A program made the position numbers and the translations under genes. Shown here one piece after another: positions 4,937 to 42,390 of a DNA stretch of 64,000 nt. This DNA is from Bacteroidales bacterium (GTDB lineage: Bacteria; Bacteroidota; Bacteroidia; Bacteroidales; Tenuifilaceae), in assembly GCA_016931855.1 (NCBI GenBank), contig JAFGDZ010000048.1:62001-126000 (forward strand), given 5' to 3'. The notes beneath the pieces were generated by a model. It was not told the DNA's origin. It did not search any database and saw nothing but the letters and a program-made list of their open reading frames with translations. Position 1 is the first letter of the stretch, and every line of letters starts with the position of its first letter.

Positions 4937-5497
4937 ATGAAATTATACATAAAATATATGGTTAGCCTAAGGTGCAAACTGATGGTTAAAGAAGAGCTAA
5001 AAAAACTGGGGCTGTGCTACGTATCGGTGGACTTGGGGGTGGTTGAGATAATGGATGGTATTTCCGACGAGCAAAAGGAGCAGCTTAAACGGAACTTGCA
5101 AAGGTTAGGGCTGGAGCTAATGGACGATAAGAAAAGCATTTTGATTGAACGAATTAAGAATGTAATAATAGAAATGATCCACTACTCCGATGAGTTACCA
5201 AAAGTAAACTACTCCGTTTATATTAGCGAAAAGCTTGGCTACGATTACACATACCTTTCCAACATCTTTTCCGAAGTAAAAGGCATTACGCTACAGCACT
5301 ATATTATTTTGCACAGGGTTGAAAAAGTGAAGGAGCTTCTCCTTTACGACGACTTGAATTTAACGGAAATATCGTACCGACTACAATATAGCAGCGTAGC
5401 ACATTTATCAACTCAGTTTAAAAAAATTACAGGACTCTCTCCGTCCTTCTATAAAAAGCTTAAGAAAAAGCGGATTGTAAATCTTGAAAATCTGTGA
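4937..5497 (+). CDS. AraC-family transcriptional regulator (small, N-terminal ferredoxin-fold-like domain)
   Basis: 186 residues. The C-terminal 100 or so form a two-part AraC/XylS DNA-binding domain: the first helix-turn-helix is in SEKLGYDYTYLSNIFSEVKG (about 94-113), the linker helix follows at HYIILHRVEKVKELLLYDD, and the second helix-turn-helix is LTEISYRLQYSSVAHLSTQFK plus the family signature GLSPSFYKKL (about 165-174). The first 65 residues (YMVSLRCKLMVKEELKKLGL...) lack a cupin and resemble a small beta-alpha-beta domain, not a usual AraC sensor domain. AraC-type monomers carry two helix-turn-helix units and typically bind direct repeats spaced about 21 bp; a set of such repeats occurs in this window, the first one starting over this gene's own stop codon. 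The regulatory link is inference. Confidence 0.85.
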   Translation: MKLYIKYMVSLRCKLMVKEELKKLGLCYVSVDLGVVEIMDGISDEQKEQLKRNLQRLGLELMDDKKSILIERIKNVIIEMIHYSDELPKVNYSVYISEKLGYDYTYLSNIFSEVKGITLQHYIILHRVEKVKELLLYDDLNLTEISYRLQYSSVAHLSTQFKKITGLSPSFYKKLKKKRIVNLENL

Positions 5498-5557
5498 TAT
5501 ATGTAACTCTTTTTTATGATAATGTAACGCTATTACTCTGTTTTGCCCCCACCTTTG
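5493..5557 (+). promoter_or_regulatory. Direct-repeat stress promoter A
   Basis: TGTGAT (5493), ATGTAAC (5501-5507), second ATGTAAC (5522-5528, exactly 21 bp later), and -7 box CACCTTTG (5550-5557) after 21 bp. It begins over the stop codon of the AraC-type gene and reads toward the DUF3185-like gene, leaving a leader of about 160 nt. Confidence 0.75.
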
Positions 5558-5725
5558 TTATGCCGAAATTGGCTTTGTAAGCTAATCACTATTAAATGCA
5601 TAGCGTACTATTAGTGGTGCTATCCCAAGTTTTATACAATTAGTTCCAAGCAATTAATGTGATTTGGAAAGTCATTCTTATGCGGCAATTGTAATTATCA
5701 TTTTTAAAATTTAAAAACAAAAAAG

Positions 5726-5938
5726 ATGAAAAACGTTGGATTAATCATTTTGGCAATAGGGCTTGTAGTAACCCTAATTACGGGATTTAGATTTGTTACC
5801 AGGGAGAAGGTTGTGGACATTGGCGATCTTAAAATCTCGCGCAATAAGAATCACGCTATTACCTGGTCGCCCTTGGTTGGTATTGCAGTTATGGTTGTTG
5901 GTGGAGGCATCTTTTTGGTTGGGAATAAAAAGAAGTAG
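5726..5938 (+). CDS. DUF3185-like small membrane protein
   Basis: 70 residues with two membrane helices, residues 4-21 (VGLIILAIGLVVTLITG) and about 48-66 (SPLVGIAVMVVGGGIFLVG), separated by a charged loop (TREKVVDIGDLKISRNKNH). The pattern fits the DUF3185 family of small inner-membrane proteins of unknown function, often found among stress genes in Bacteroidota. It is the first gene behind direct-repeat promoter A. Confidence 0.7.
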   Translation: MKNVGLIILAIGLVVTLITGFRFVTREKVVDIGDLKISRNKNHAITWSPLVGIAVMVVGGGIFLVGNKKK

Positions 5939-6055
5939 TACCTTGTTAAGGTACAGCTATTTTGTTTCACTAAAGGGGTGATTGCTTGCGGGTTGCTAAT
6001 AACAAGTTAGCTAAAAAGCCTTGTAGTTTATTCTTAAAATGGAGATCTAAATTCA

Positions 6056-7012
6056 ATGTACTTAAAAGCAAGAATAAACCTATTGCTAATCCTTTTGGCA
6101 TTCTCATCTGGCACTGCGTTTTCGCAAGAGAACCAAGCGGTGCCAGATAGCATCCAAAAGGAGATATCCAAAAAGGGTAACACCATTTCAATGTTTAACA
6201 TGTATCGTGAGCAAAGCTATATTTTGCTTGGGGGCGGCTTGGGGAACTTGGAGCCGCTGATATTCGAAGCCGACATTATACCTTACTTCTTAATTAGCCT
6301 TAGCCAAAATGCAAGGTGGGGAATGGAAGTATCGCCCCGAATTATTATCCGCATGCTTAACAAGGAATCATATCCTGTGCAAACACCCTCATATATGCCA
6401 AAGGCAACAATCTTTTACCAGTTTGCCGATAGCCATAGGGGGAAAAGAGATTTCTTTACATTCTTATCGTGGATGCACTACTCTAACGGGCAAGACGGCA
6501 GCTTTTACAATTCCGATAGCACAGGCATAAACACCGCCTCGGGCAGCTTCTCTACTTACTGGGTGCAGGGAGGGGTATTTGTATCGCGCCCCAGCAAGGT
6601 TTTAAAATTTAACACCAACTACATAAAGCTCTACGCCGAGTACAATTACAACCAGGAAAAGGAGCTAAAGGGGATATACGGGCATATGCGTGTGTTTGCG
6701 AATATGAAAAATACCATAATACTATCAAAAGCCTTTAGAGCCATTGTGGCAGCAGAAAAGAATAGCAAAACTTACGTATTCGATCAATCTATTAAAATTG
6801 GCTGGATAGCCGATGAGCTGGTGAATACGAAGGTGATAGATAAGAAACGGCTAATATTTAACTACACCCTCTCTTTTAAACCCGCATTTTTAAAGGATGT
6901 GAACTTCTTTATTCATTACTACTACGGACAAGATTACTACAACATCCACTTTGAGCGCCATTTAAGCGTAATTCGTATTGGCATTGCATCAAAATCGAAT
7001 ATTCAGTTTTAG
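6056..7012 (+). CDS. Outer-membrane phospholipase A1-like protein (OMPLA family)
   Basis: 318 residues with a signal peptide ending near FSSGTAFSQ and alternating beta-strand character throughout. The segment FLSWMHYSNGQDGS (about 139-152) matches the OMPLA catalytic region HxSNG, in which His and Ser form the active site (H142/S144 in E. coli PldA). The third residue, Asn in E. coli, is not obvious: the aligned strand is SFSTYWVQGG with Tyr near that place. The C-terminal strand YYYGQDYYNIHFERHLSVIRIGIASKSNIQF ends in Phe and fits barrel insertion. Members degrade mislocalised phospholipids in the outer leaflet. The neighbouring Mla operon acts on the same problem. The length and full-length barrel support function; the missing Asn leaves activity uncertain. 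Confidence 0.65.
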   Translation: MYLKARINLLLILLAFSSGTAFSQENQAVPDSIQKEISKKGNTISMFNMYREQSYILLGGGLGNLEPLIFEADIIPYFLISLSQNARWGMEVSPRIIIRMLNKESYPVQTPSYMPKATIFYQFADSHRGKRDFFTFLSWMHYSNGQDGSFYNSDSTGINTASGSFSTYWVQGGVFVSRPSKVLKFNTNYIKLYAEYNYNQEKELKGIYGHMRVFANMKNTIILSKAFRAIVAAEKNSKTYVFDQSIKIGWIADELVNTKVIDKKRLIFNYTLSFKPAFLKDVNFFIHYYYGQDYYNIHFERHLSVIRIGIASKSNIQF

Positions 7013-7035
7013 AAAATCTCATCTTGTAATTATTG

Positions 7036-7105
7036 TAGCACAGTAAGTGCTGGGCAAAACCCTTACTCCCGTTTGGTAACGGAGGTTACTCTGTGCTTTC
7101 TTTTG
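7036..7105 (+). terminator. Probable terminator after OMPLA-like gene
   Basis: Arms around AGCACAG...TAA (from 7037) and TTACTCTGTGCT (7086-7097) pair with a short bulge; TTCTTTT follows. The long loop makes it moderate evidence only. Confidence 0.45.
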
Positions 7106-7143
7106 TGGTAATGTGCTCTGGAGTATTGGGTTAGCTCCAAATG

Positions 7144-7208
7144 CGTGAAAGATGTAAGTTATTGCCAAAGTTGTATAACGCTTTTTGCGGCCCCTTGGCT
7201 CACCTTTG
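7144..7208 (+). promoter_or_regulatory. Direct-repeat stress promoter B
   Basis: CGTGAA (7144), ATGTAAG (7152-7158), GTATAAC (7173-7179, 21 bp later), and -7 box CACCTTTG (7201-7208) after 21 bp. The csbD start codon is 38 bp beyond the -7 box. Confidence 0.7.
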
Positions 7209-7246
7209 TAGTAACGCAAATTCTCACAAACTAATAATTAGAACTG

Positions 7247-7432
7247 ATGAACAAGATTGAACTTAAAGGCAATTGGAACGAGAAAAAGGGCAAGCTAAAG
7301 CAGGCGTATGCCATTTTAACCGACGATGACTTTCTATTTGATGAGGGCAAAAAGGATGAGATGCTTGGCCGTATTCAAATTAAGATTGGTAAAACAAAGG
7401 AGGAGTTTAGCAAAATTATGGAGGAGCTATAG
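7247..7432 (+). CDS. CsbD family general stress protein
   Basis: 61 residues matching CsbD: GNWNEKKGKLKQAYAILTDDD (residues 6-26) then GKKDEMLGRIQIKIGKTKEEFSKIM. CsbD proteins are small, soluble, highly charged stress-induced proteins whose molecular role is unknown. This is one of three CsbD-like genes in the window, and two of them stand directly behind a promoter of the same direct-repeat type. Confidence 0.85.
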   Translation: MNKIELKGNWNEKKGKLKQAYAILTDDDFLFDEGKKDEMLGRIQIKIGKTKEEFSKIMEEL

Positions 7433-7702
7433 CGCTAAGCCTGGTGCATGTAAGCATATAAAAGCTTAGCTCGTTGCGGGCAGTTCTTTTTGCAAAATGA
7501 TACCAGAACTAGCAAAAACGTTATGCGTAAATTGACGTAACGCTCCATTTTATCAACATTCTGATTGAGAATATCAACCCCATTGATGCTATTACTTTAT
7601 TTTTTTTGAGATGATATTCAAGCAAAGGTAAAGTTAGCAGCAAGGGGGTTGTTCTTTTTTTGCGGTAAGTTATAAACATCAAAATTTGTTCAAATTGTCA
7701 GT

Positions 7703-8557
7703 ATGAAAATAAACAAATTAAAATTTACTTCAATAAGTAAAGTTTCAGCTTTTGCAACGCTTCAAACCACACGAATAAGTGAAAAAACGCTTGCAAAAAC
7801 TAAAGCCGCCAGCAACTTTATAACCGATGTTGCCGATGTTTTCCTATTTATTCATCGTATTATAAAAGAGTCCTTTTCCAGCAGTTTTGAGTTCAAGGAG
7901 TTTCTTTATCAGTGCTACAAAATTGGGTATAAAACATTGCCCCTTGTTACGGTAACTGGAGCCATTATGGGATTGGTGCTAACCATACAATCCAGGCCGG
8001 TGCTAATAAATTTTGGAGCAGTGTCAATGTTGCCCAGTATGGTTGTAGTGTCGCTAATTAGGGAGATGGGGCCAGTAATAACGGGGCTAATTTGCGCCGG
8101 AAAAATTGGTTCGGGCATGGGAGCCGAGCTAGGCTCAATGAGGGTAACGGAGCAGATTGATGCCATGGAAGTTTCGGCAACCAATCCTATGCAGTATCTA
8201 GTTGTTACGCGGGTTTGGGCTGCAACGCTTATGATCCCTTTACTGGTTTTGTATGCCGATGCCTTAGGGGTTATGGGTAGCTGGATGGGGGCAAATATAA
8301 AGGGGGAGGTAACTCTTACTCTGTTTTTTTCGCAAGCATTTAGCCATGTCGATTTTCTCGATTTTTTCCCCGCTGTAATTAAAACATTCTTTTTTGGTGC
8401 ATTAATTGGCCTTGTGGGGTGTTACAAGGGGTACAACGCCGGTCGCGGAACAGAAAGCGTGGGTGTAGCGGCAAACTCAGCGGTTGTGCTCGCTTCCCTT
8501 CTGGTTATTGTTGTTGATATGGTTGCTGTACAAATAACCGATATGCTAATATTATGA
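7703..8557 (+). CDS. mlaE: MlaE-type lipid ABC transporter permease
   Basis: 284 residues of the MlaE/YrbE permease family (DUF140). The family core VTGAIMGLVLTIQSRPVLINFGA (about 81-103), REMGPVITGLICAGKIGSGMGAELGSMRVTEQIDAMEVSATNPMQYLV, and the C-terminal FFFGALIGLVGCYKGYNAGRGTESVG are all present, with about five membrane helices. With MlaF and MlaD it forms the inner-membrane complex that moves phospholipids between inner and outer membrane. The N-terminus is about 30 residues longer than usual. First gene of an operon of four, in the order permease, ATPase, MCE protein, barrel protein. Confidence 0.9.
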   Translation: MKINKLKFTSISKVSAFATLQTTRISEKTLAKTKAASNFITDVADVFLFIHRIIKESFSSSFEFKEFLYQCYKIGYKTLPLVTVTGAIMGLVLTIQSRPVLINFGAVSMLPSMVVVSLIREMGPVITGLICAGKIGSGMGAELGSMRVTEQIDAMEVSATNPMQYLVVTRVWAATLMIPLLVLYADALGVMGSWMGANIKGEVTLTLFFSQAFSHVDFLDFFPAVIKTFFFGALIGLVGCYKGYNAGRGTESVGVAANSAVVLASLLVIVVDMVAVQITDMLIL

Positions 8558-8689
8558 CACGAGCCAAGATGAAGGTATTGATAGATACACCCTCTTATGA
8601 TTATTCTGGAGTAGCGTTAAGCTCTAAAGCTGGCTTGGTTGATTCATGGCCAGCTCCATTGGTTAGTTTGATAATTAAAAAATAAACAG

Positions 8690-9472
8690 ATGAAAACCGA
8701 GCACCCAGAATCTGTAGCCCAAGCGGAGCTAAGCACAACTGCCAATGAGACGGTAATTGAAATTGCGAACCTCCAAAAATCGTTTGATGGGAACGAGGTA
8801 TTATCTGATGTAACCTTAAACCTTTATAAGGGCGAGAACCTTGTTGTACTTGGCAAGTCGGGTAGCGGCAAATCGGTTTTAATAAAATGCATTGTGGGGC
8901 TACTACAGCCCGATACTGGAACAATAAACGTATTTGGCGAGAATGTGGTTAAGCTGAGCATGAAGGGGTTAAGTGAGGTACGAAAAAAAGTTGGATTCCT
9001 TTTTCAGAGCGGTGCTCTTTACGATTCTATGACAGTGAAGCAGAATCTGGAGTTTCCGCTGCGAAGAATAAAAAAGGGGTTAACCCGGGTTGAGGTTGAC
9101 GAGAAAGTGATTGAAGTGCTAGACAATGTGGGGTTACCAGATGTTCTGGATAAAATGCCCTCTGAGCTATCGGGTGGGATGCGAAAGCGGATTAGCTTGG
9201 CCCGCACCATTATTGTTGACCCCTTGGTTATGCTTTACGATGAGCCCACAACTGGGCTCGACCCGGTTACATCCAACGAAATAAGTGAGCTAATAAACGA
9301 GGTGCAGCAGAAGTATAAAACATCATCAATAATTATTACACACGATATTAAATGCGCACTTAAAACAGCAACCCGAATAGTTATGCTTCACGAGGGTTCT
9401 GTTTACTGGGAAGGGAACGTAAAGGAGTTTGAGAGCTCAGAAGATCCAATAATACATGACTTTTTTTTATAA
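8690..9472 (+). CDS. mlaF: MlaF-type lipid ABC transporter ATP-binding protein
   Basis: 260-residue ABC ATPase. Walker A is GKSGSGKS (about 64-71), the Q-loop is FLFQSGALYDSMTV (typical 'Q.GALFDS.TV' of the MlaF subfamily), the signature is ELSGGMRKR (about 158-166), Walker B is VMLYDEPTTGLDP (about 179-191) and the switch histidine is in IIITHDI. The C-terminal LHEGSVYWEGNVKEF is also subfamily-typical. It powers the MlaE permease. It lies 132 bp after mlaE; the gap holds no gene. Confidence 0.92.
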   Translation: MKTEHPESVAQAELSTTANETVIEIANLQKSFDGNEVLSDVTLNLYKGENLVVLGKSGSGKSVLIKCIVGLLQPDTGTINVFGENVVKLSMKGLSEVRKKVGFLFQSGALYDSMTVKQNLEFPLRRIKKGLTRVEVDEKVIEVLDNVGLPDVLDKMPSELSGGMRKRISLARTIIVDPLVMLYDEPTTGLDPVTSNEISELINEVQQKYKTSSIIITHDIKCALKTATRIVMLHEGSVYWEGNVKEFESSEDPIIHDFFL

Positions 9473-9586
9473 ATGGCTTTGCAATAGCTCCAAAACGCAA
9501 ACATAGCCCAAATATGTTGCATTTACAGTGTAAGTAGTTACCGCAGCACCTTAGGCCGATTAACCTGTTTAGTTAAAAAACACACA

Positions 9587-10549
9587 ATGGAAACACACAC
9601 ACACAAATTTAAAGTACGCTTAGGGCTGTTTATATTCGGGGGATTGGCGCTATTCGTTTTTGCCATATTTATTATTGGTAAGCAAAAGAATCTTTTTAAC
9701 CCGGTTTTTAAACTTTCCACAACATTCTATAATGTAAGCGGGCTGCAGGTTGGCAACAACATTCGCTTTTCGGGAATAAACGTTGGAACGGTAGATAAAA
9801 TAAGCATAGTAAACGATTCTACAGTACGGGTTGGTATGCTAATACGGAAAGAGATTAAGCAGTTTATAAAAACCGACTGTGAAGTGTCTATTGGCTCCGA
9901 GGGGCTTATTGGCGACAGGCTATTGGTAATATCGCAAAGCAGCTCCGATGCCGTAATGGCAAAAGAGGGGCAACACCTAGTATCTAGCGAGCCAGTGGAG
10001 CTGGATGCTATTATAGCCAGTTTTCAGGTATCGGCTAAAAACGCCGAGATTATTACTCAAGAGCTCGCAAATCTTACGCTTAAGGTAAATAGCGGTCGTG
10101 GTACACTGGGACGTATAATATACGATTCTACTATTGCTCAAAACATAGGTCAGTCCATAGTTAACTTTAAAAACGCATCAAACCGATTTGATGAGGTTAT
10201 GGTGCTTACCCAAAAGGATATCTCCGATATTCTTGGGAGCGCTTTAGTGTCGGTAAATAGTATGGAAGTTAGCACGCAACAGCTAGAGGAGCTAATGGTT
10301 ACCATCAATAGCGGGGAGGGTACCATTGGTAGGCTAGTTAACGACTCTGTAACGGCCGAAAATATCGATATGACAATTGTAAACATTAGAAATACAACCA
10401 AAGGATTAGATGAGAATATGCAAGCGCTAAAGCATAATATTTTCTTCAGGAGATACTTTAAGAAGATGGCCAAGGAAAAGGAGAAGAAGCGTATTGAAGA
10501 GGAGGCCAGAAAAGCTGCCCAGCCATCAACAGTAATTGGGCCCGAGTAG
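9587..10549 (+). CDS. mlaD: MlaD-type MCE domain lipid-transport protein
   Basis: 320 residues. A single N-terminal membrane helix (LGLFIFGGLALFVFAIFIIG, 12-31) anchors it in the inner membrane. An MCE domain follows (about 38-118: FYNVSGLQVGNNIRFSGINVGTV ... VSIGSEGLIGDRLLVI). The periplasmic C-terminal helical region contains two copies of a 'NSGRGTLGRIIYDSTIAQNI' / 'NSGEGTIGRLVNDSVTAENI' repeat at about 164 and 243. The tail is highly charged (KKMAKEKEKKRIEEEARKA). MCE proteins form hexameric rings that pass lipids across the periplasm. No mlaC or mlaB is adjacent. Confidence 0.88.
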   Translation: METHTHKFKVRLGLFIFGGLALFVFAIFIIGKQKNLFNPVFKLSTTFYNVSGLQVGNNIRFSGINVGTVDKISIVNDSTVRVGMLIRKEIKQFIKTDCEVSIGSEGLIGDRLLVISQSSSDAVMAKEGQHLVSSEPVELDAIIASFQVSAKNAEIITQELANLTLKVNSGRGTLGRIIYDSTIAQNIGQSIVNFKNASNRFDEVMVLTQKDISDILGSALVSVNSMEVSTQQLEELMVTINSGEGTIGRLVNDSVTAENIDMTIVNIRNTTKGLDENMQALKHNIFFRRYFKKMAKEKEKKRIEEEARKAAQPSTVIGPE

Positions 10550-10585
10550 TTTTGCAGTTTAATTGTTTTGTAATGGCAAACCAGT

Positions 10586-12457: not shown

Positions 12458-12852
12458 CAAATATTCCACATTGCCTAGCTGTTAGGGCCTGCAATTTCAC
12501 CTGCTCATAAATATTTCAAGTTATTGTTGCTTAGCCTATTTAAATGTGTGAAATGTGTAAGATGTGGAGGTAATTATGTAACACATCGTGCTGCTTATGT
12601 TTGCACCTTTGTTGTATGATAATTACCTCTTACTAACGGCCAAATTATGAGCATCGCTGCAACTGGAAATATTTGGGCAATAAAGTGTAGCCGTGCACAT
12701 AAACACTTGGTTTTATTGGCTGTAAAGCTATAGGCATAGCTCATACCCTGCGTTGCACTTGCCACTATTGCAATACCAGTAGGGTTTACTTGTGGGGGGA
12801 TGACACACATTTAGCTCTTTTTTAGTATTAATCGTTACAAAAAAAAACAACT
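12458..12852 (+). other. Intergenic region with promoter C and a long leader
   Basis: No firm gene. Promoter C is at 12547-12611. About 30 nt after its expected start site, an ATG at 12647 opens a 28-codon frame (12647-12733) without recognisable features; other promoters of this class have their gene at that distance, so a short or decayed gene is possible here. Confidence 0.4.
12547..12611 (+). promoter_or_regulatory. Direct-repeat stress promoter C
   Basis: TGTGAA (12547), GTGTAAG (12555-12561), ATGTAAC (12576-12582, 21 bp later), and -7 box CACCTTTG (12604-12611) after 21 bp. The ytxH gene begins about 240 bp downstream. Confidence 0.75.
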
Positions 12853-13107
12853 ATGAATTCAAAAAGTGCATTATTAGGTGTATTGGCTGGCATTACTGCT
12901 GGCGCATTGCTTGGGGTTTTGTTTGCCCCCGCAAAAGGTTCTAAAACTCGCAAAGCCATATCCAGATCTGGTGAAGACTTTGTTGATGGCTTAAAGGATA
13001 AGCTTACCGATTTAATTGAATCCATGACCGAGAAGTTTGAAGAGGCAAAAGAAACTGCCACCGACTTTGCCGAGCAGCATGGAAAATCAAAATCCAAGGA
13101 AGCTTAA
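12853..13107 (+). CDS. YtxH domain-containing protein
   Basis: 84 residues. The N-terminal helix SALLGVLAGITAGALLGVLFAPAKGSKTRKAI (5-36) is the YtxH signature: a glycine-rich membrane helix followed by FAPxxGxxxR. It is followed by a long charged amphipathic helix (LKDKLTDLIESMTEKFEEAKETATDFAEQ). YtxH proteins are small general-stress membrane proteins of unknown function. It lies behind direct-repeat promoter C and upstream of the holin-like, hypothetical and AI-2E genes, which may be co-transcribed after a 302-bp gap. Confidence 0.85.
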   Translation: MNSKSALLGVLAGITAGALLGVLFAPAKGSKTRKAISRSGEDFVDGLKDKLTDLIESMTEKFEEAKETATDFAEQHGKSKSKEA

Positions 13108-13751: not shown

Positions 13752-13758
13752 GGAAGAT

Positions 13759-14154: not shown

Positions 14155-14180
14155 CATTATATTTTTAATTTAGATAAGTT

Positions 14181-15400: not shown

Positions 15401-15426
15401 ATGTTGCCTCGCCCTTTTGGGCAATG

Positions 15427-15491
15427 TGTGAATAATGTAAATCTTTAGTATAGTTACGTAACACATTAGCAGTGTACTAGGGCTACATTTG
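15427..15491 (+). promoter_or_regulatory. Direct-repeat stress promoter D
   Basis: TGTGAA (15427), ATGTAAA (15435-15441), ACGTAAC (15456-15462, 21 bp later), and -7 box TACATTTG (15484-15491) after 21 bp, a perfect TAnnTTTG. The start codon of the next gene is 23 bp beyond. Confidence 0.78.
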
Positions 15492-15513: not shown

Positions 15514-15699
15514 ATGCCATTACTTACTATTTTAATCATTCTAATTGTAGCGGGCGTTCTGTTATGGGCTGTTAATAACTACATCCCTATGGATAGCAAA
15601 ATAAAGAGGATTCTAAACATTGTGGTTGTTATTGTTGTAATTGGATGGCTGCTTAAAATATTTGGTGTTTTTGAATACCTAAGGGATATTCAGTTTTAA
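15514..15699 (+). CDS. Thivi_2564-like small membrane protein
   Basis: 61 residues with two membrane helices (LLTILIILIVAGVLLWAVNNYIPM, 3-26, and IKRILNIVVVIVVIGWLLKIFGVF, 30-53). The pattern 'NNYIPMDSKIKRILNIVVVI' is typical of the Thivi_2564 family of small inner-membrane proteins. Function unknown. It has its own direct-repeat promoter. Confidence 0.75.
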   Translation: MPLLTILIILIVAGVLLWAVNNYIPMDSKIKRILNIVVVIVVIGWLLKIFGVFEYLRDIQF

Positions 15700-32379: not shown

Positions 32380-33070
32380 GTGTCTGTTTTTTTGTTTTTA
32401 AGAGGTACGTATGCCTGCCTGCCCTTGGGCAGGAACTAACGGCTAGCCAAAGGCAATGGCACTCCTATGGTAATTACCCATGGGATAGTCTTTAGCAGGT
32501 ATAATAAAGCTGTAATCATGTGTGTTTCATGACTTGCTATTCCGGTTATTATAACCCTGTTTAAAAGCGTTCCTTTCTCAGTGCGTATTCATGCGCAAGT
32601 GATGTGCATAAATGGTAAGGGAGAAATTAAGGTGTAACTTTCCAGTGAGTGCGAGTGATCTGAGAATATATTAAAGCTCCTTTGCGACTTTATTTAGAAG
32701 AGGTAACTTGCTTAAATTTAGCGGTATGAAATTTTAGTGTGCATTTTTAGTTGTAAGTAGTGTTTCATATACTGCTACTCCAAGTATAAGCATATAATCC
32801 CATTAAGTTGCTATATAACTCTGAAAATAAATTATATAATTGCTACAAGTAGCGATGTCCAAGTAGATACAGTAACATTTTTTTAGTGAAGATACTGGTA
32901 TTTCTTCCTCTAGCTCCCATCATCCTTAATACTCCACTTGGTATCCCATTTATGGCTATTAAAAAAATATGTGAAAAATGTAACACTACTCAAAATTTAT
33001 GTAACACATTAAAATCTATATATAACCAACTTTATGGTTATCAATTTACTAACGATATAATAGTTAAGGC
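32380..33070. other. Divergent intergenic region with promoter E
   Basis: The 691 bp separate the minus-strand glucan synthase gene from the plus-strand reductase gene. A 16-bp palindrome CCTGCCCTTGGGCAGG lies at about 32417-32432 in the leader of the synthase gene. Promoter E is near the right end. No clear -7 box was found for the synthase gene and no small gene is convincing. Confidence 0.5.
32970..33034 (+). promoter_or_regulatory. Direct-repeat stress promoter E
   Basis: TGTGAA (32970), ATGTAAC (32978-32984), ATGTAAC (32999-33005, 21 bp later), both repeats perfect. The -7 position (33027-33034) reads CAACTTTA, a weaker match to TAnnTTTG at exactly the expected spacing. The reductase start codon is 37 bp beyond. 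Confidence 0.72.
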
Positions 33071-33742
33071 ATGGCTCAGCAGATTGTAAAAATACGATAC
33101 ATAACACATATAACTCATGATGTGCTTGAAATTGTTACCGATAAACCAGAAGGGTTCACGTTTACTGCAGGGCAGGCGGTTGCAGTATCAATAAATAAAA
33201 TTGGTTGGGTAAATGAGGTGCGCCCCTTCTCGTTAACAAGTATTCCCGAGCAATACTTTTTGGAGTTTATTATCAAGGTTTATCCGTTGCACAAAGGAGT
33301 AACCAATCATCTACTACAGCTAAAAGAGGGCGATGAGCTTATTTTACACAATACCTTTGGCGCTATAAGCTATAAGGGCAAGGGTGTTTTTATTGCAGGA
33401 GGAGCAGGGATTACCCCTTTTATTAGCATTCTTCGCGACCTGCACTCGCGAAAAGAGGTTGACAGCAATAAGCTGATTTTTGCCAACAAAACAAAGGAGG
33501 ATATAATTCTGGAGGCAGAGTTAAAAGCAATTCTCAAGCATAATGTTGTAAACATTATTGCTGATGAAAATGTCAAGGGGTATGCGCAGGGGCTAATTTC
33601 AGAAAGTTTTCTTAAATCTCATGTAAGCCAATCGTGCAAGAATGTTTACCTGTGTGGCCCTCCACAAATGATGGAAGCAGTTGAGGGGCAGTTACGCCAA
33701 TTGAATATCGACGAGAAATCCATTACAAAAGAAGAGTTTTAG
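33071..33742 (+). CDS. Ferredoxin-NADP+ reductase-like flavin oxidoreductase
   Basis: 223 residues with an N-terminal FAD-binding barrel (FTFTAGQAVAVSI about 29-41; EVRPFSLTSIPEQ about 50-62, the RxxS FAD motif as RPFS) and a C-terminal NAD(P)-binding domain (GVFIAGGAGITPFISILRDL about 104-123; VYLCGPPQMMEAVEGQL about 192-208). No iron-sulfur domain is attached, so an external partner such as a flavodoxin, ferredoxin or globin is expected. It stands behind direct-repeat promoter E and may be the first gene of an operon with the sensory genes that follow. Confidence 0.85.
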   Translation: MAQQIVKIRYITHITHDVLEIVTDKPEGFTFTAGQAVAVSINKIGWVNEVRPFSLTSIPEQYFLEFIIKVYPLHKGVTNHLLQLKEGDELILHNTFGAISYKGKGVFIAGGAGITPFISILRDLHSRKEVDSNKLIFANKTKEDIILEAELKAILKHNVVNIIADENVKGYAQGLISESFLKSHVSQSCKNVYLCGPPQMMEAVEGQLRQLNIDEKSITKEEF

Positions 33743-33866
33743 CGGGCTACCTCTATCAACAGCTAACTTGGTAACCAAAAGGCCCCAACAAAAATCAGGA
33801 ATTAAAAAGGAGTTTCGGAGAATTGCAGAAAATCAAAAAGATAACGCCCTAATACTCTATAACCCG

Positions 33867-35180: not shown

Positions 35181-35249
35181 TATGTGAATTTTTTTTATTT
35201 TATTTGTGTAAATAAGTAATTGGGAATAACCCATTTGCAAAAGAATAAA

Positions 35250-38213
35250 ATGGATAATAAAAAATCCAAAAATCCTAAACAGGTAAAGCCCAAGTCAACA
35301 AGGCTTTTAACTCAAGCAACAGCGCTTCCCAATCCCACTTTATTCCCAATTGTTGGTATAGGTGCCTCGGCAGGCGGGTTAGATGCGTTGGAGCAGTTTC
35401 TTAGTAATGTACCTCCTAGTAGTGGAATGGCCTTTGTTGTAATTCAGCACCTAGACCCCACCCAGAAGGGAATGCTACCAGAGCTATTGCAAAGGGTTAC
35501 AACAATGAAAGTTTTACTAGCCAAAAACCGATTGGTAGTAAAGCCAAACTGCGTATATGTAATACCACCAAACAAAAGCATGTCTATTCTTAATGGTGCG
35601 CTTTTGCTCTTTAGCCCTATAGAACCAAGGGGGCTACGTTTGCCTATCGATTTCTTCTTTCGCTCATTAGCCGACGATAGAAAGGAGCTAGGCGTAGGGC
35701 TGGTTCTCTCGGGCATGGGCTCCGATGGCAGCGTAGGCCTTTGTGCCATTAAGGAGAGGAACGGTATGGTAGCGGTGCAGGAGCCTTCAACCGCCCAATT
35801 CGATAGTATGCCCCGAAATGCCATAGATTCTACTCCGGTGGATATAGTTGCCCCTCCCAATGAGCTCCCGCATAAAATACTAGAGTTTTTTAAGCAAATG
35901 CCATTAGCAAGTTCTAATCTTGACCAGGAGATAAAAGACAAGAGCTCTCTGGAAAAAATAATTATACTCTTGCGTTCCTTTACTGGTAACGACTTTTCGC
36001 TGTATAAAAAGAGCACGGTGTACAGGCGAATCGAAAGGCGTATGGGAGTACATAAAGTTGGAAAAATATCATCGTATGTTCAGTTCTTGCAGGAGAATCC
36101 AAAGGAAATAGAGATCCTTTTTAAGGAGATAATGATTGGGGTTACAAGCTTTTTTAGAGACTCTAGCGTTTGGGAAAAGTTAGCAGAGAGGGTTCTTCCA
36201 GATCTTATTGCCAATTTACCTTCGGGCTCAAATTTGAGAGCTTGGATCCCCGCTTGCTCCTCGGGAGAGGAGGCTTACTCCATGGCAATAGTTTTTAAAG
36301 AGGTACTTGCCAAGCTAAATCCACCACGACGAATTTCTCTTCAGGTATTTGCCACAGATTTGGACAACGATGCTATTGAGATTGCCCGAAAAGGGGTTTT
36401 TCCCATAAACATTGCTGCCGACGTTTCCCCCGATAGATTGGCTCAATTTTTCTACAAAACAGAAGACGGATACCGTATTAATAGCGATATAAGGGAAATG
36501 GTTGTTTTTGCGCAGCATAACCTTATAATGCACCCACCTTTTACAAAAATAGATATCCTGTCGTGCCGCAACCTGCTTATTTACATGGAGCCAGAGTTGC
36601 AAAAAAAGATACTCAGGTTGTTCTACTATAGCCTCAATACCAATGGGGTAATGCTACTCGGAAGCTCCGAAACGCTAGGGGCTATGAGCCATCTTTTTGT
36701 TCCTATTGATGCAAAATTTAAGCTCTACAAGCCATTGGCCAATGTGCATGAACCCGATGTGTTTAGCTTTCCATCATCATTTGTACACGGCAACCCAGGT
36801 AACGCTATCAAGCCAGAAGCATCGCTCCCTCCTCCAAATATCCAATCGCTGGCAGATCAAGTTCTCTTGGAGCACTTTGCGCCCCCTAGCGTTTTAGTTA
36901 ACCAGAACGGAGATATTGTTTACATAACGGGACGAACAGGGAAATACCTTGAACCCGCTGCAGGCAAAGCTAATTTGAACATCTTTGTTATGCTTCGGGA
37001 GGGGATTCGTAACGAGTTTCACGTGGCCTTTAATCAAGTTATAAGAAACAATGCATCTGTTGTTTTGCGAAACCTACGAGTGCGAACTAACGACAGCACT
37101 CAGCTACTAAACCTTGCTATTCATTGGATTGACAAGCCGGAACCTTTAATAGGCTTAATAATGGTTACCTTCAACGATATCCCCGAAGTAACACCCCCTA
37201 AGTTGCCAAAGGGTAAAAAATCGGTGGGCCACTACAAAACGGAGGAGCTTGAAAAAGAGCTGCAAAATATCCGCGAGGAGATGCAAACCTCCGTTGAGGA
37301 GATGCAGGCGTCGCAGGAGGAGCTAAAATCGGCAAACGAGGAGTTACAATCATCTAACGAGGAGCTACAATCAACCAACGAGGAGCTTACCAGCTCTAAG
37401 GAGGAGATGCAAAGTTTGAACGAGGAGTTCCAAACAGTTAATTCTGAGCTTATGGCAAAAGTGGAGGAATTTGCTAGGGTAGATAACGATATGAAGAACT
37501 TGCTAAATAGCACCGATATTGCCACTCTTTTTCTTGATAAAGACCTGAATATAAGGCGATATACTAATCAGGCTACCAAAATATTTAAGCTAATTAAAAG
37601 TGATATTGGCCGACCCTTTACCGATTTGGTCTCGGATATCATGTACCCCCAAATGGCCGATGATGCCAATGAGGTGCTTAGCTCTCTTGTGCTTATAGAA
37701 AAGCAAATTCCAAGCAAGGATGGGCGCTGGTTCTCCATTCGGATTATGCCGTACCGAACCTTCGACGACAGGATAGACGGGCTTGTAATAACCTTTATCA
37801 ATATAACGGAGCTTAAAACGGTTGAGGATAAATTAAATGAAGCGGAAAGTGTTATTGAGCTGCTATCATCGTCAGCAGCAAATGCTGTGGTAAGGCTATC
37901 GGCTAAAGGTATAATAGAGGCTTTTAACCCTAGTGCGGAGCTGCTGTTTGGATCTAAAAAAAATGAGGCTATTGGTAATAACTTTGTGGAGCTGTTTGTT
38001 CCAGTGCCATTGCGTAAAAAGGCAGTTAGCTCATTGCATAAGCTACTTAGCAGCTCTCAGAATACAAAAATTATCCTTAATATTCAACCAGTTACAGGAG
38101 AAATCCTTGAGGTTGAGTGGGCTGCCAGCATCTTACTCAATAAACTTAAAATATCAACAGGTGTAATTCTAATGGCAAGCCCTAAGCCTTTTCCTAAGAA
38201 TAATAAATTGTAA
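35250..38213 (+). CDS. CheB-CheR-PAS fusion protein (kinase-less)
   Basis: 987 residues from ATG 35250 (the frame is open from TTG 35220). N-terminal CheB methylesterase: VGIGASAGGLDALEQFL (catalytic Ser), VVIQHLDPTQKGMLPEL (His) and LSGMGSDGSVG (Asp). Then CheR methyltransferase: MIGVTSFFRDSSVWEKL, IPACSSGEEAYSMAIV (SAM loop), ILSCRNLLIYMEPELQKKIL. A PAS-like part follows, then a long coiled coil of repeated EELQSSNEELQSTNEEL, then two PAS domains (LLNSTDIATLFLDKDLNIRRYT; VIELLSSSAANAVVRLSAKG). Many such fusions end in a histidine kinase; this one stops after the last PAS. It probably couples methylation-type signalling to the adjacent kinases, but this is inference. No chemoreceptor gene is nearby. 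Confidence 0.88.
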   Translation: MDNKKSKNPKQVKPKSTRLLTQATALPNPTLFPIVGIGASAGGLDALEQFLSNVPPSSGMAFVVIQHLDPTQKGMLPELLQRVTTMKVLLAKNRLVVKPNCVYVIPPNKSMSILNGALLLFSPIEPRGLRLPIDFFFRSLADDRKELGVGLVLSGMGSDGSVGLCAIKERNGMVAVQEPSTAQFDSMPRNAIDSTPVDIVAPPNELPHKILEFFKQMPLASSNLDQEIKDKSSLEKIIILLRSFTGNDFSLYKKSTVYRRIERRMGVHKVGKISSYVQFLQENPKEIEILFKEIMIGVTSFFRDSSVWEKLAERVLPDLIANLPSGSNLRAWIPACSSGEEAYSMAIVFKEVLAKLNPPRRISLQVFATDLDNDAIEIARKGVFPINIAADVSPDRLAQFFYKTEDGYRINSDIREMVVFAQHNLIMHPPFTKIDILSCRNLLIYMEPELQKKILRLFYYSLNTNGVMLLGSSETLGAMSHLFVPIDAKFKLYKPLANVHEPDVFSFPSSFVHGNPGNAIKPEASLPPPNIQSLADQVLLEHFAPPSVLVNQNGDIVYITGRTGKYLEPAAGKANLNIFVMLREGIRNEFHVAFNQVIRNNASVVLRNLRVRTNDSTQLLNLAIHWIDKPEPLIGLIMVTFNDIPEVTPPKLPKGKKSVGHYKTEELEKELQNIREEMQTSVEEMQASQEELKSANEELQSSNEELQSTNEELTSSKEEMQSLNEEFQTVNSELMAKVEEFARVDNDMKNLLNSTDIATLFLDKDLNIRRYTNQATKIFKLIKSDIGRPFTDLVSDIMYPQMADDANEVLSSLVLIEKQIPSKDGRWFSIRIMPYRTFDDRIDGLVITFINITELKTVEDKLNEAESVIELLSSSAANAVVRLSAKGIIEAFNPSAELLFGSKKNEAIGNNFVELFVPVPLRKKAVSSLHKLLSSSQNTKIILNIQPVTGEILEVEWAASILLNKLKISTGVILMASPKPFPKNNKL

Positions 38214-38231
38214 AACTAAACTGATAAAGCC

Positions 38232-38786
38232 ATGAATTACGACGAGCATGATTTTACAAACGCCAAAATGTTGCGTAAAAAAGCTGAGGAGCAACTTGCA
38301 TTGAAACAAAGCGCATCTAGTCAAGTGTCTAATAAAGAATCCGATACAAAAAAACTCTTGCACGAGTTGCAGGTGCACCAAATAGAGCTAGAAATGCAAA
38401 ATGAAGAGCTTCAGAAAGCCTACGAAACGGCCGAAGAAGCCCTTAGAAAGTACACCATGCTATACGATTTAGCTCCCATGGGCTACCTCACACTTGAGAA
38501 GAATGGAATTATTAATGAGCTAAATTTTACTGCGGCCAATTTGCTTGGCGACAAGCGTGTTGCCCTAATTAATAATGCGCTAAAGCTTTACATTGCAGAT
38601 AGCTCAAAGGTTGAGTTTAGCACCTTTTTTAGCAAAGTGCTAAAGGGGAGCACAAAGGAATCGTGTGTGGTGCAGCTGGGATACAACGATAAAGTTCTTG
38701 GCACGGTATATATGGAGGGAATCCTCTCTGCCGACGACGAAAAGTGCTTAGTATCAGTAATTGACATAACAAACTTTAGGAAGTAG
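38232..38786 (+). CDS. Orphan PAS-domain protein
   Basis: 184 residues: an N-terminal charged helix, the motif LHELQVHQIELEMQNEEL (about 43-60), and one PAS domain (LYDLAPMGYLTLEKNGIINELN to VSVIDITNFRK). It ends immediately after the PAS, with no kinase or output domain, and the following DNA does not resume a kinase. It is a paralogue of the N-terminal half of the kinase at 33867. It begins 18 bp after the CheB-CheR gene, so it is likely co-transcribed. It may be a separate sensory subunit that docks to another kinase, or a truncated kinase gene. Confidence 0.75.
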   Translation: MNYDEHDFTNAKMLRKKAEEQLALKQSASSQVSNKESDTKKLLHELQVHQIELEMQNEELQKAYETAEEALRKYTMLYDLAPMGYLTLEKNGIINELNFTAANLLGDKRVALINNALKLYIADSSKVEFSTFFSKVLKGSTKESCVVQLGYNDKVLGTVYMEGILSADDEKCLVSVIDITNFRK

Positions 38787-39207
38787 AGCAACCATTTGTA
38801 CACCAGTAAAGAACGTGGTGTACCCTAATAATTTGCAAACACCGCTGGTGAAATGGCTAAATAAGGTGTGCTTTTGCAGCCTTGGTCTAGTTGGTTCCCC
38901 AGTTTTGGTACTTATTTTACCTATCCCCTTTGTTTTTACTCCGGTTACCATTCAAAGTGGTTTATTTTAGGCGCATAAATCTACTTGTTCCGTATTATTT
39001 GGAATACCCCTATTTCAGCATCCCTTTTAGCAGTATCAAATGGTACTATGGGCTTATCCCGTATCAAAGTAACGCTTTCATATCTGGCTGCTTACTTATA
39101 CACCTGTGAATGTTGTAACAAATTTATAAACTTGTGTAATACAATAGAGTGCTTGCGGAGCCACCTTTGTACCCATAGTTAATAGTTTTAACCCAAAACA
39201 TAAAATC
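38787..39207 (+). other. Intergenic region with promoter F
   Basis: 421 bp with no gene seen. Promoter F occupies 39105-39169; nothing else stands out. Confidence 0.5.
39105..39169 (+). promoter_or_regulatory. Direct-repeat stress promoter F
   Basis: TGTGAA (39105), TTGTAAC (39113-39119), GTGTAAT (39134-39140, 21 bp later), and -7 box CACCTTTG (39162-39169) after 21 bp. The first gene starts 38 bp beyond the -7 box. Confidence 0.75.
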
Positions 39208-39363
39208 ATGGGAAATTTACTTTACGTAGTTGCTGTAATCCTTATAATCCTATGGGCAATAGGTTTTATTGGATATAATGCGGGTGCCGTTATTCATATT
39301 TTATTGGTAATTGCTCTTATAGCCGTATTGCTTAGGATTATACAAGGCAAAAAAATTATTTAG
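39208..39363 (+). CDS. lmo0937 family small membrane protein
   Basis: 51 residues (MGNLLYVVAVILIILWAIGF...), with two membrane helices separated by GYNAGAVIHILLVIALIAVLLRII. This is the lmo0937 family pattern 'L..IAVILIILWLLGF......IHILLVIALIxLLLxLI'. Function unknown, stress-associated in many genomes. First gene behind promoter F. Confidence 0.8.
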   Translation: MGNLLYVVAVILIILWAIGFIGYNAGAVIHILLVIALIAVLLRIIQGKKII

Positions 39364-39415
39364 TGATATTTTCTATTTCTAGATTGCAAATAACCTTCAT
39401 CTAATACAATACTCT

Positions 39416-39568: not shown

Positions 39569-39570
39569 AA

Positions 39571-39759: not shown

Positions 39760-40210
39760 CCCAATTACCGATAGGTGTTTAAAGCGGAAGGTATTAATGA
39801 GCTAAGGGCTTACACCTTACACCTGTAGGCTATTTACGTAACGGTTGCACTGGTAGCTATTCTTATAATGCTTTTGCCCTTTTAGAATAGGAGGTGGCGC
39901 GTAAGCCAACCGTTGAGAGTACACAGCCAGGGCACAAATCCCATTATCAGAAGCAAGGCAATAGGGTTTAGCCTTGGCTGTTTGCCCTTTTTATGCGTTA
40001 ACCTGCGCTGAATACCGTTGGGCAATTTCATAATAGGATCCGCCGCAAATACGCTCTATTGCCTAACCAAAATCCCTCCTTGCGTTTTTTAACAATTTAT
40101 TGGATTAGGATATTTCCCCCCATTCATAAAAAATACTCTTATGGTTACTTGCTGTATTATTTACAACAGGAGGGAAACCAGTACCAATAATTCATAAAAA
40201 AGTAAAAATC
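39760..40210 (+). other. Intergenic region upstream of the hybrid kinase
   Basis: 451 bp, no gene. It contains a single ACGTAAC heptamer (39836-39842) without a partner 21 bp away, and a structured segment at 39923-39981. Confidence 0.45.
39923..39995 (+). terminator. Large hairpin followed by T-run (terminator or structured RNA)
   Basis: Arms ACAGCCAGGGC (39923-39933) and GCCTTGGCTGT (39971-39981) pair with one mismatch; an inner AAA(T)CCC/GGGTTT stem continues it. TTGCCCTTTTT follows. It may end the promoter F transcript or be the 3' end of a small RNA. Confidence 0.45.
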
Positions 40211-42166
40211 ATGGATACCTTGAGCAGCAACGTAGAACGCACAAACGTAAACCAATCAGAACAAAATTTCGGGCATCAGCTCTCCGTTCTAAAAGGCATT
40301 TTAGAATCTATCAAAACTCCAGTATTTTCTGTTGATGTAGATTTTAAGTACACCAACTACAATAAAGCGCATGTAGCGGTAATGAAGCTATTGTATAATG
40401 CCAACATCGAGCTAAATAGCAATATGCTGGGGTATATAACAGTGGACGAGGATCGCGCAAAGGAGAAGCAAAACCTAACCAAGGCGCTACACCACGAATG
40501 TACTGTTGAAGAGGAGTTTACAGACGAAGCGCATTTAACCAGCTTGTGCTCCGAGGTAACCCACAACCCAATTTACGATAGCGATAACAAAATAACTGGG
40601 GTTATGGTAATTGCTAAAGATACCACCACTGCCAAACGGGGCGAGGAGAAGTTGAGGGAGTCTGAAAAGAGTTACCGCAGGCTTTTTGAGTCGGCAAAAG
40701 ATGGGATACTAATTCTTGATGCCCTAACCGGTCAAATTGACGACGCAAATCCATTTATAACTGATATGCTTGGGTATGGTTATCATGAGCTAATAGGTAA
40801 GGAGCTGTGGGAGATTGGCACATTTAAAAATATTGTTCCCTCAAAAGAGGCTTTTGTTGAGCTACAAAAGAATGGATATATCCGTTTTGAGAACATGCCA
40901 TTGGAAACAAAACACGGCAGGCGCATAAACGTTGAGTTTATAAGCAACGTGTATTTAGTTGATCAGGCTAAAGTTATACAGTGTAATATTCGTGATATCA
41001 CGGAGCGTATTATGGCACATGAGCAGCTACTTGTTGCCAAAGCCAAAGCCGAAGAGAGCGATCGCTTAAAGACTGCTTTTCTGCACAATATCTCGCATGA
41101 AATTCGAACCCCCATGAATGCCATTGTGGGGTTTTCTGGCTTTCTTGTAGAGCCCGACCTAATAGATGAAAAGCGAAAGCTTTTTACCGATATTATAATA
41201 CAAAGTAGCGATCAGCTGCTTGCCATTATTGATGATATTATTTGCATTGCCTCTATTGAGGCAGGGCTAGAGAAAAATCAGGAGACCGAAATCAGCATAA
41301 ACTCAATATGCAAGCTCCTTTACGACCAGTTCTCCCTTAAGACCTTAGGTAAAGCGGTTCTGCTGAGCATGAAAACCCCATTAGCAGACAATGAGGCAAC
41401 CGTTATTACAGACTCTACCAAGCTTACCCAAATCCTGAATAATCTTATTGGCAATGCGCTTAAATTCACCAGGCAGGGGTATGTTAATTTTGGATACTCG
41501 TTAAAAGGCAACTTCTTAGAATTTTTTGTAGAGGACTCGGGAATTGGGATCCCTTTAGATATGCAAGGCATTGTATTTAATCGTTTCCGTCAGGTCGAAA
41601 ATACCAATGAACAGCTATTTGGTGGCTCAGGAATAGGCCTATCCATCTCAAAAGCTTATGTTGAGATGCTTGGAGGTAAAATATGGTTAACGTCCGAACT
41701 GGGTAAAGGTTCTGTGTTCAACTTTACAATTCCTTACAAAAGGGCGAATCTTCAGAAATTAGCTGCCAATCAGCCCCAAAAGGGACTTGGTGTTGATTTA
41801 GAGGCCGTTAAAGAAATACTTGTAGCCGAAGATGACGGCTCTAACTTCATTCTGCTAAACGAGTTCTTATCGCATTCGGGGGTAGCCATTATTAGAGCTC
41901 TAAATGGCGCCGAGGCAGTTGCTCTTTGCAAAGCTAACCCACAAATTAGCCTGGTTTTAATGGACATTAAAATGCCAGTAATGGATGGTTACGATGCAAC
42001 CACACGCATAAAAGAGTTTAGGCCCAACTTGCCCATAGTTGCTTTAACGGCATATTCAACGGAGGTTGATAAGAATAGAGCATTGGCATGTGGTTGCGCC
42101 GATTTTATAAGTAAACCAATAAGAAAGGAACTGTTACTAGCAAAAATTAACGAGTACCTTCGCTAG
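40211..42166 (+). CDS. Hybrid histidine kinase (PAS-PAS-HisKA-HATPase-REC)
   Basis: 651 residues, no membrane helix. Two PAS domains (about 25-140, ending VMVIAKDTTTAKRGEE; about 155-275, LFESAKDGILILDALTG to CNIRDITERI). HisKA with FLHNISHEIRTPMNAI (phospho-His about 295), HATPase_c with NNLIGNALKFT, VEDSGIGIP and GGSGIGLSISK. C-terminal receiver domain (about 533-651): ILVAEDDGSN, LVLMDIKMPVMDGYDA (phospho-Asp), ALTAYS and the Lys of DFISKPI. It is a self-contained phosphorelay module; no output regulator is adjacent. Confidence 0.9.
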   Translation: MDTLSSNVERTNVNQSEQNFGHQLSVLKGILESIKTPVFSVDVDFKYTNYNKAHVAVMKLLYNANIELNSNMLGYITVDEDRAKEKQNLTKALHHECTVEEEFTDEAHLTSLCSEVTHNPIYDSDNKITGVMVIAKDTTTAKRGEEKLRESEKSYRRLFESAKDGILILDALTGQIDDANPFITDMLGYGYHELIGKELWEIGTFKNIVPSKEAFVELQKNGYIRFENMPLETKHGRRINVEFISNVYLVDQAKVIQCNIRDITERIMAHEQLLVAKAKAEESDRLKTAFLHNISHEIRTPMNAIVGFSGFLVEPDLIDEKRKLFTDIIIQSSDQLLAIIDDIICIASIEAGLEKNQETEISINSICKLLYDQFSLKTLGKAVLLSMKTPLADNEATVITDSTKLTQILNNLIGNALKFTRQGYVNFGYSLKGNFLEFFVEDSGIGIPLDMQGIVFNRFRQVENTNEQLFGGSGIGLSISKAYVEMLGGKIWLTSELGKGSVFNFTIPYKRANLQKLAANQPQKGLGVDLEAVKEILVAEDDGSNFILLNEFLSHSGVAIIRALNGAEAVALCKANPQISLVLMDIKMPVMDGYDATTRIKEFRPNLPIVALTAYSTEVDKNRALACGCADFISKPIRKELLLAKINEYLR

Positions 42167-42326
42167 CAGCACCTTGCGTACATTAGCCTCCTTAAACCCA
42201 ATTGGAATTTCACTAAAACCGCGTGTCCCTATCCAAAACTCAGCGCGGATTATCCATTTAACGCCTGTATTCTTCCTTCAGTAATTAGCCTATTCTTGGA
42301 GTTTAGGCATTCCGATAAACCTAACC

Positions 42327-42390
42327 TGTGATATGTGTAACTAATGCAAATAATTGTGTAACAATACCATAAGGTTTGTAGGTATCTTTG
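42327..42390 (+). promoter_or_regulatory. Direct-repeat stress promoter G
   Basis: TGTGAT (42327), GTGTAAC (42335-42341), GTGTAAC (42356-42362, 21 bp later), and -7 box TATCTTTG (42383-42390) after 20 bp. The csbD-like gene starts 37 bp beyond the -7 box. Confidence 0.77.

Follow-up and report, generated by a model that had tools for sequence, protein, structure and literature searches.

Regulator gene and promoter sites in the window

The window, that is, the whole stretch of 64,000 nucleotides (64 kb) analysed here, comes from a Bacteroidales bacterium (assembly GCA_016931855.1, contig JAFGDZ010000048.1) and carries the gene of an AraC-type regulator together with seven promoter sites of one shared architecture, named A to G. 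We propose, with a probability of about 0.8, that these sites are operators of the AraC-type activator encoded at 4937-5497, which would control a clustered stress and envelope regulon within 37 kb beside its own gene. The regulator gene and the sites are as follows.

4937..5497, plus strand: AraC-type regulator of 186 amino acids, with an HTH_18 match (E 2.4e-18, residues 97-174) and an HTH_AraC match; proposed activator of all seven units
5493..5557, plus strand: site A, a TGTGA-N4-TGTAAC half-site with a second TGTAAC at +30, CACCTTTG; the regulator gene ends within this site, its TGA stop being the TGA of TGTGA
7144..7208, plus strand: site B, with CGTGA and second box TATAAC, 2 mismatches
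12547..12611, plus strand: site C, pattern match with 0 mismatches
15427..15491, plus strand: site D, pattern match with 1 mismatch
32970..33034, plus strand: site E, 0 mismatches; -7-like box ends in TTTA
39105..39169, plus strand: site F, pattern match with 1 mismatch
42327..42390, plus strand: site G, 0 mismatches; TTTG one base closer, at +60

Aligned with each other, the seven sites give the consensus TGTGA-N4-TGTAA-N16-TGTAAC, with boxes starting at 0, +9 and +30; the spacer bases vary among the sites and the boxes are kept. An earlier interpretation made from the DNA letters (the sequence-only reading) had listed sites at 5493, 7144, 12547, 15427, 32970, 39105 and 42327 with fixed distances between the boxes, and both points were confirmed, with offsets of 9 and 21 bp in all seven cases. 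The variant boxes are CGTGA and TATAAC in site B, TGTAAT in F and CGTAAC in D, and mismatches to the 16 fixed bases number 0, 2, 0, 1, 0, 1 and 0 from A to G. At most two mismatches were allowed when the window was searched, which gave 7 matches, compared with a mean of 0.03 in 60 first-order Markov sequences of window length. Further downstream, a (C/T)AnnTTTG -7-like element starts at +57 in five sites and at +56 in site G, with TTTG at +61 and +60, respectively; in site E (32970), the element reads CAACTTTA and ends in TTTA, not TTTG. The box is complete in six of the seven sites. At B, D, E, F and G, the next ATG follows the box at a distance of 22-38 nt. For sites A and C, it is 168 and 241 nt to the start of the open reading frame (ORF) regarded as the next gene.

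Scanning of all 82 contigs of the source genome (4.08 Mb) with the consensus plus one further fixed T, at up to three mismatches, returned 22 matches. These comprise the seven window sites (0-2 mismatches, all on the plus strand) and 15 matches with exactly three mismatches, which are scattered over the genome. The reversed pattern, used as a control, gave 25 matches with at most three mismatches, and a pattern with wrong spacing (one base short) gave 17, none of them with fewer than two mismatches. All seven matches of the genome with at most two mismatches lie on one strand of contig C78, in one 36.9-kb cluster that starts at the regulator gene. The sequence-only reading had proposed such a scan as a check. 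No further good sites (at most two mismatches) exist elsewhere in the genome, and a genome-wide regulon in the source organism is therefore not supported. As far as good sites show, the regulon is one 36.9-kb cluster on a single strand. An arrangement of 7 to 19 promoters on one strand beside the regulator, the higher number being that of a relative described below, is an odd layout for an activator able to act in trans.

Operator anatomy and its linkage to the regulator

Column conservation was derived from 176 distinct sites with at most one mismatch, collected across genomes, and TTTG offsets from 245 sites with at most two. Outside the 16 selected bases, conserved columns include an A-tract at -5, -4 and -3 (57, 72 and 82%), A+8 (74%), A+25 (70%), T+28 (71%) and A+36 (64%). 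In a spacing scan, 76 sites were found at gaps of 4 and 16, with no more than one at any of nine alternative second gaps and none at five alternative first gaps; 12 matches at a first gap of 6 are 4/16 sites preceded by TG. Self-similarity among the columns of the block is highest at offset 21 (0.32; next 0.17). The 15-bp half-site TGTGA-N4-TGTAAC is followed, 21 bp on, by a second half-site that keeps box B (TGTAAC) and has a reduced box A. A half-site spacing of 21 bp is typical of AraC/XylS operators, and the sites share with these the direct-repeat half-sites with two boxes, set two helical turns apart.

The -7-like element is conserved at A58 (86%), C60 (66%), T61 and T62 (93%), T63 (83%) and G64 (63%), and TTTG stands at +60 or +61 in 157 of the 245 sites, whereas none of 18 further offsets accounts for more than 2. 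Both the columns and the offsets support the earlier claim that the operator lies ahead of a Bacteroidota-type -7-like element at a fixed distance. The first downstream ATG chosen by rule follows TTTG at a median distance of 39 nt (an ORF was available for 233 of the 245 sites). The primary sigma of Bacteroidota is unusual, and PMC7366714 gives for it a -7 consensus of TAnnTTTG and a -33 element of TTTG. The second TGTAAC of the sites sits about where the -33 element would be.

Linkage between site and regulator gene was followed in two sets of relatives. The first consists of 60 genomes (the source genome and 59 others), 27 of which have a homologue at E<=1e-20 (39 matches, 30 with a locus). 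A site accompanies the regulator in every one of the 18 loci whose identity is 51% or more (at most one mismatch in 17, three in L070), and in only one of the 12 loci with 34-49% identity (L080, three mismatches). L066/L089 and L071/L090 are neighbouring paralogues, each pair sharing one site. Named records yielded 431 loci, and the 80 best of these, 73-81% identical to the regulator, make up the second set. They come from many orders of Bacteroidota and from one Ignavibacteriae and one Melioribacteraceae metagenome-assembled genome; the set overlaps with the first in that L123 and L126 are the same contigs as L064 and L065. Here, 58 of the 80 loci have a site with at most two mismatches on the strand of the gene, between -5 and +300 of its end, and the reversed pattern has none. 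In 32 cases the site begins exactly at -1, so that TGTGA contains the stop codon; one locus has a site within 200 bp upstream of the gene. The next ORFs vary: a mechanical rule picked out 49 of them, which sort into 21 groups, and the group with most members (11) is CsbD-like by eye. Regulator and site thus stay side by side while the downstream ORF changes, as expected if the regulator reads the site.

Presence of the two elements is also correlated at the genome level. Among the 60 genomes, a site with at most one mismatch is present in all 15 that have the regulator at E<=1e-55, a cut-off chosen after the matches were seen, and in 12 of the 45 without it, ten of which have a single match. 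The sites total 130, versus 16 for the reversed-pattern control, and at least two sites occur in 13 of 15 genomes with the regulator versus 2 of 45 without (p 2e-9). A wider set of 296 Bacteroidia genomes, the source genome included, was searched with 21 fixed bases and up to two mismatches and yielded 286 sites versus 9 for the reversed pattern. At least one site is found in 39 of 56 regulator-bearing genomes versus 30 of 240 others, and at least two in 29 of 56 versus 10 of 240 (p 1e-16). High counts occur in some lineages, as in G019 (24), G007 (20), G013 (16) and, with the longer pattern, G181 (26); in G007, 19 of the 20 sites share a strand of a single contig and extend over 105 kb. G019 encodes four homologous regulators, three of which (L212, L213 and L214) have a site directly before or behind the gene.

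The sequence-only reading had postulated one activator for all seven units, an idea that these results support, but it had overlooked both the AraC-type gene ending in site A and the local clustering; its interpretation was right in kind, incomplete and, taken as a whole, partly supported. The source genome contains no other close homologue of the regulator, the next matches having E values of 6e-5 or worse and 26-29% identity. AraC-type activators usually carry a ligand-binding N-terminal domain. In the structure model of the regulator (mean predicted local distance difference test score 88), a beta-alpha-beta-beta-alpha-beta N-terminus precedes a two-helix-turn-helix (two-HTH) DNA-binding domain, and the profile matches, the helices of the model and Foldseek all identify the C-terminal two-HTH domain that characterizes the AraC/XylS family. 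The best 50 of 430 Foldseek matches are headed by AraC-family domains (MarA, SoxS, AraC), and ranks 46-50 are metal chaperones or related proteins (4a47, GolB, Synechocystis Atx1, HAH1; E 0.16-0.31, target-normalised template modelling score 0.58-0.71), which are outscored by 9dia_C (E 0.075), an unrelated-looking 63-residue chain. The N-terminal domain thus appears to be HMA/copper-chaperone-like, with a likeness that is good by topology and moderate by score.

The alignment supplied for structure analysis consisted of the window protein and 58 of the 80 best loci. Ser10 and Cys13 are kept in all 59 of these homologues, and MVCxRC is present in several more distant members. Two residues of the first recognition helix, T105 and N109, do not vary among the 18 site-bearing regulators or among the 59 aligned homologues, whereas T105 is found in one and N109 in two of the 12 more distant relatives. 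Further residues that distinguish the 18 site-bearing from the 12 distant regulators are H126, S97 and some N-terminal ones; the second recognition helix (SSVAHLSxQFKK) is largely common to both. Such group-specific residues may partly reflect mere relatedness.

Proposed mechanism and competing explanations

Direct binding and activation by the AraC-type protein are suggested by the position of the operator ahead of the -7-like element and by its linkage to the regulator gene. Two monomers would bind head to tail, each inserting the two recognition helices of its two HTH motifs; contacts to two faces of adjacent helical turns, as the sequence-only reading had put it, are recast here as two AraC-type monomers on 21-bp direct repeats. 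The promoter-proximal TGTAAC would take the place of the -33 element, and the bound regulator would recruit RNA polymerase with the housekeeping sigma in a class-II-type activation. The metal-chaperone-like N-terminal fold, with Cys13 in the metal-loop position, might sense a metal, thiol or redox signal or might form a dimer interface. The predicted output consists of genes for small membrane proteins, CsbD/YtxH proteins, lipid transport, outer-membrane assembly and sensor kinases.

Four other explanations of the sites were weighed against operators of the AraC-type regulator. The strongest of them, which we nevertheless regard as unlikely, assigns the operator to another transcription factor and makes the AraC-type gene merely a target or conserved neighbour. 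A site just upstream of the AraC-type gene, as seen in L067, L069, L070 and L072, fits a target and equally fits autoregulation. The constancy of the regulator-site pair in front of varying ORFs, the loss of sites as the regulator diverges and the AraC/XylS-like shape of the half-sites all argue against a different factor. Several observations weigh against the AraC-type protein as reader of the sites. At the stringency used, 17 of the 56 regulator-bearing genomes among the 296 Bacteroidia have no site, and 28 named genomes (42 matches versus 6 for the control) include eight without a site of at most one mismatch, 19 with 1-3 and one with six. Conversely, twelve genomes have at least two sites and no regulator at E<=1e-55 (10 of the 296, and G018 and G030 of the 60). 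Two of the twelve do contain incomplete relatives, namely G285, with a 73% relative cut by the contig end and a site exactly at the gene end (L251), and G130, with a 57% partial relative. G175 and G231 only have relatives of 41-45% identity, a class without sites elsewhere. The remaining eight (G018, G030, G092, G204, G211, G240, G282 and G324) have no relative at E<=1e-15, and a DNA-binding-domain profile found nothing at 1e-6 in four of them; in the other four, all that it picked up were distant AraC proteins. This leaves ten draft genomes with at least two sites and no close regulator, which carry the main weight for another factor.

Site clusters were viewed in six of the eight genomes (G018, G030, G204, G211, G282 and G324). 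Some reach contig ends, and no truncated regulator was seen in the clusters of these six; by eye, the cluster genes of G282 and G324 are of the same kinds (TamB-like, DnaJ-like, YtxH-like, ice-binding-like). Contig gaps could not be shown to explain all the regulator-less sites; at the end of G282:C36, the sequence does not lead into a regulator gene. In G324, contigs L262 and L263 (about 1-310) have an almost identical stretch of 300 bp in common, whose site stands about 245 bp from the contig end. This suggests that the assembly was broken by repeats that carry a site.

A LytTR response regulator came into consideration through the 21-bp spacing: binding sites of LytTR proteins are direct repeats with a similar spacing, and the source genome has 19 LytTR domains. 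None of the 19 LytTR genes lies on contig C78, which carries all seven sites, and LytTR repeats are not known to include a box like the TGTGA that precedes the first TGTAA by 9 bp, which counts against this candidate. With no LytTR gene linked to the sites, it was rejected as highly improbable. Equally slim is the chance that the boxes are no activator operator and serve an alternative, ECF-type sigma factor as promoter elements. TGTAAC does resemble ECF-type -35 elements, which contain AAC. The conserved block, however, spans -5 to +36, contains TGTAAC twice and has an A-tract upstream of the boxes; after it comes an element like TAnnTTTG, the -7 consensus that PMC7366714 gives for the primary sigma. 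The idea of recently duplicated promoter cassettes, or of a dispersed repeat with no regulatory role, has a nearly negligible probability: the sites of the source genome are all clustered and co-oriented, as it would predict, but their spacers differ while the boxes stay, and boxes and extra conserved columns recur in many families of Bacteroidia.

The proposed operation of the seven sites by the AraC-type regulator has a close parallel in XylS and its promoter Pm, where two monomers beside RNA polymerase read a pair of 15-bp direct repeats that both contain a box A and a box B (PMC5481539). Shared with XylS/Pm and other AraC-type activators are the two-HTH domain and two 15-bp direct repeats with two boxes. 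In contrast to XylS, the boxes are TGTGA/TGTAAC instead of TGCA/GGTA and are spaced by 4 bp instead of 6, the -7 element is of the Bacteroidota type, the N-terminal domain appears metal-chaperone-like, and several targets are clustered beside the regulator. The PM2 motif of Bacteroides thetaiotaomicron, a second promoter class enriched at oxidative stress genes, is near-palindromic with elements at -10 and -30 according to PMC7366714, unlike the direct repeat ahead of a TAnnTTTG-like element found here. The SigmaB, RpoS and EcfG regulons of other bacteria include CsbD-, YtxH- and lmo0937-type genes; the proposed regulon would differ from them in employing an AraC-type activator at a housekeeping-type promoter and no alternative sigma.

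In titles and abstract openings of the literature, nothing was recognised as this operator or regulon, nor was a SigmaB/RpoS-type master stress regulator for Bacteroidota found there. As far as such listings reach, regulator, operator and targets are new, and the mode of DNA reading is familiar. Taken together, the regulator, the operator and the promoter layout allow targets to be predicted from sequence alone in many genera. Some of these are cultivated, and Pontibacter populi (L138) and Runella (L139) are examples in which a site lies at the end of the regulator gene. A much broader interpretation is possible, though we hold it only tentatively and consider it rather doubtful: the metal-chaperone-fold AraC activator, sensing thiol, metal or redox state via Cys13, may run a widespread Bacteroidota stress and envelope regulon in the role of SigmaB/RpoS/EcfG, which in some Bacteroidales has grown to co-oriented, regulator-headed clusters (up to 19 promoters, 105 kb).

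Target genes and surroundings

The genes behind the seven sites are listed below.

5726..5938, plus strand: small membrane protein (by eye) of 70 amino acids, behind site A; no Pfam family over the cut-off
6056..7012, plus strand: 318-amino-acid protein, no Pfam match
7247..7432, plus strand: CsbD (E 2.7e-14), behind site B
7703..10549, plus strand: MlaE permease, ABC ATPase and MlaD (lipid-transport-type), after CsbD
12853..13107, plus strand: YtxH by profile match, behind site C
13410, 13759 and 14181: holin-X-like protein, 131-amino-acid protein and AI-2E transporter, after YtxH
15514..15699, plus strand: Thivi_2564-family membrane protein (E 6.3e-21), behind site D
16144-21141 and 21138-23450, plus strand: TamB-like protein and Omp85, after the Thivi_2564 gene
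33071..33742, plus strand: FAD/NAD oxidoreductase, behind site E
33768 and 35220: PAS histidine kinase and CheB-CheR-PAS protein, after the oxidoreductase
39208..39363, plus strand: lmo0937/DUF5670 small membrane protein by profile match, behind site F
39571 and 40211-42166: 62-amino-acid protein and PAS hybrid kinase, after the lmo0937 gene
42427..42612, plus strand: divergent CsbD-like protein of 61 amino acids, weak NCBIfam match, behind site G
Following 42427: 158-amino-acid protein, outer membrane protein barrel (43156), 133-amino-acid protein and ice-binding/Big_5 protein (ORF 44244-45467)

Profile matches agree with most of the gene labels given by the sequence-only reading, namely CsbD (7247), YtxH (12853), Thivi_2564 (15514), lmo0937/DUF5670 (39208) and, as an FAD/NAD oxidoreductase, the flavin reductase at 33071. 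Two labels fared less well: the second proposed csbD gene (42427) has a weak NCBIfam match only (E 0.004), and the DUF3185-like label of 5726 is unsupported, with no Pfam family at E<=0.1. Look-alikes of the 5726 protein were seen by eye behind a site in L063 and L260. The CsbD protein at 7247 is the sole PF05532 match at E<=0.001 in the source genome.

Across genomes, the target set contains 148 of 170 distinct ORFs behind sites (TTT or TTG at +61, at most 600 amino acids; 22 dropped). Its Pfam families are Ice_binding (16), DUF5670 (9), Big_5 (9), Band_7 (5), OmpA (5), YtxH (4), CsbD (4), AraC-type (3), Cupin_2 (3), MlaE (2) and CheB (2), and NCBIfam adds lmo0937 (10) and PRK10428 (CsbD/YjbJ-type, 9), which bears out the expectation that CsbD-, YtxH- and lmo0937-type ORFs lie behind such sites elsewhere. 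In 148 control genes, searched with Pfam only, the 25 families listed of 95 include DUF5670 (3), Band_7 (2) and Ice_binding (1); YtxH and CsbD are not among these 25, and single matches could sit in the remainder. An earlier control set of random ORFs was dropped as many looked spurious. The final controls were drawn from the same loci. They still contain members of the same clusters, eight AraC-type genes and L122:13748, which is also in the test set with a different end; the comparison is therefore conservative. CsbD, YtxH and lmo0937 families belong to general stress regulons (SigmaB/RpoS/EcfG) elsewhere. Judged by its gene families, the regulon may serve a stress role, as the sequence-only reading had proposed, and the ice-binding, Mla, TamB/Omp85 and OmpA-like proteins suggest an envelope part too.

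Some features of the cluster deserve separate mention. The ice-binding/Big_5 ORF at 44244-45467 has no site of its own within three mismatches, though its family is the commonest after sites elsewhere. Behind site E, the region 33768-38786 encodes a PAS histidine kinase, a CheB-CheR-PAS fusion and a PAS-like protein; CheB-like ORFs also occur by eye behind sites in G013 (L209), and these sensor-type genes may feed a signal to or from the regulon. The otherwise plus-strand cluster is interrupted at 23653-32379 by a minus-strand gene for a 2908-amino-acid GH94/glucoamylase protein with a weak glycosyltransferase match, which we take to be cyclic beta-glucan synthase-like. Shortly upstream of the regulator, 3613-4266 has a weak IS200-like transposase match (E 5e-5), which bears on a possible mobility of the cluster. 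Right after the cluster follows a minus-strand block (45811-63920), probably a prophage or prophage remnant, that encodes a tape-measure-like protein at 48662-51739 and a DNA methyltransferase at 55636-56706 and also has weak tail/virion-like matches.

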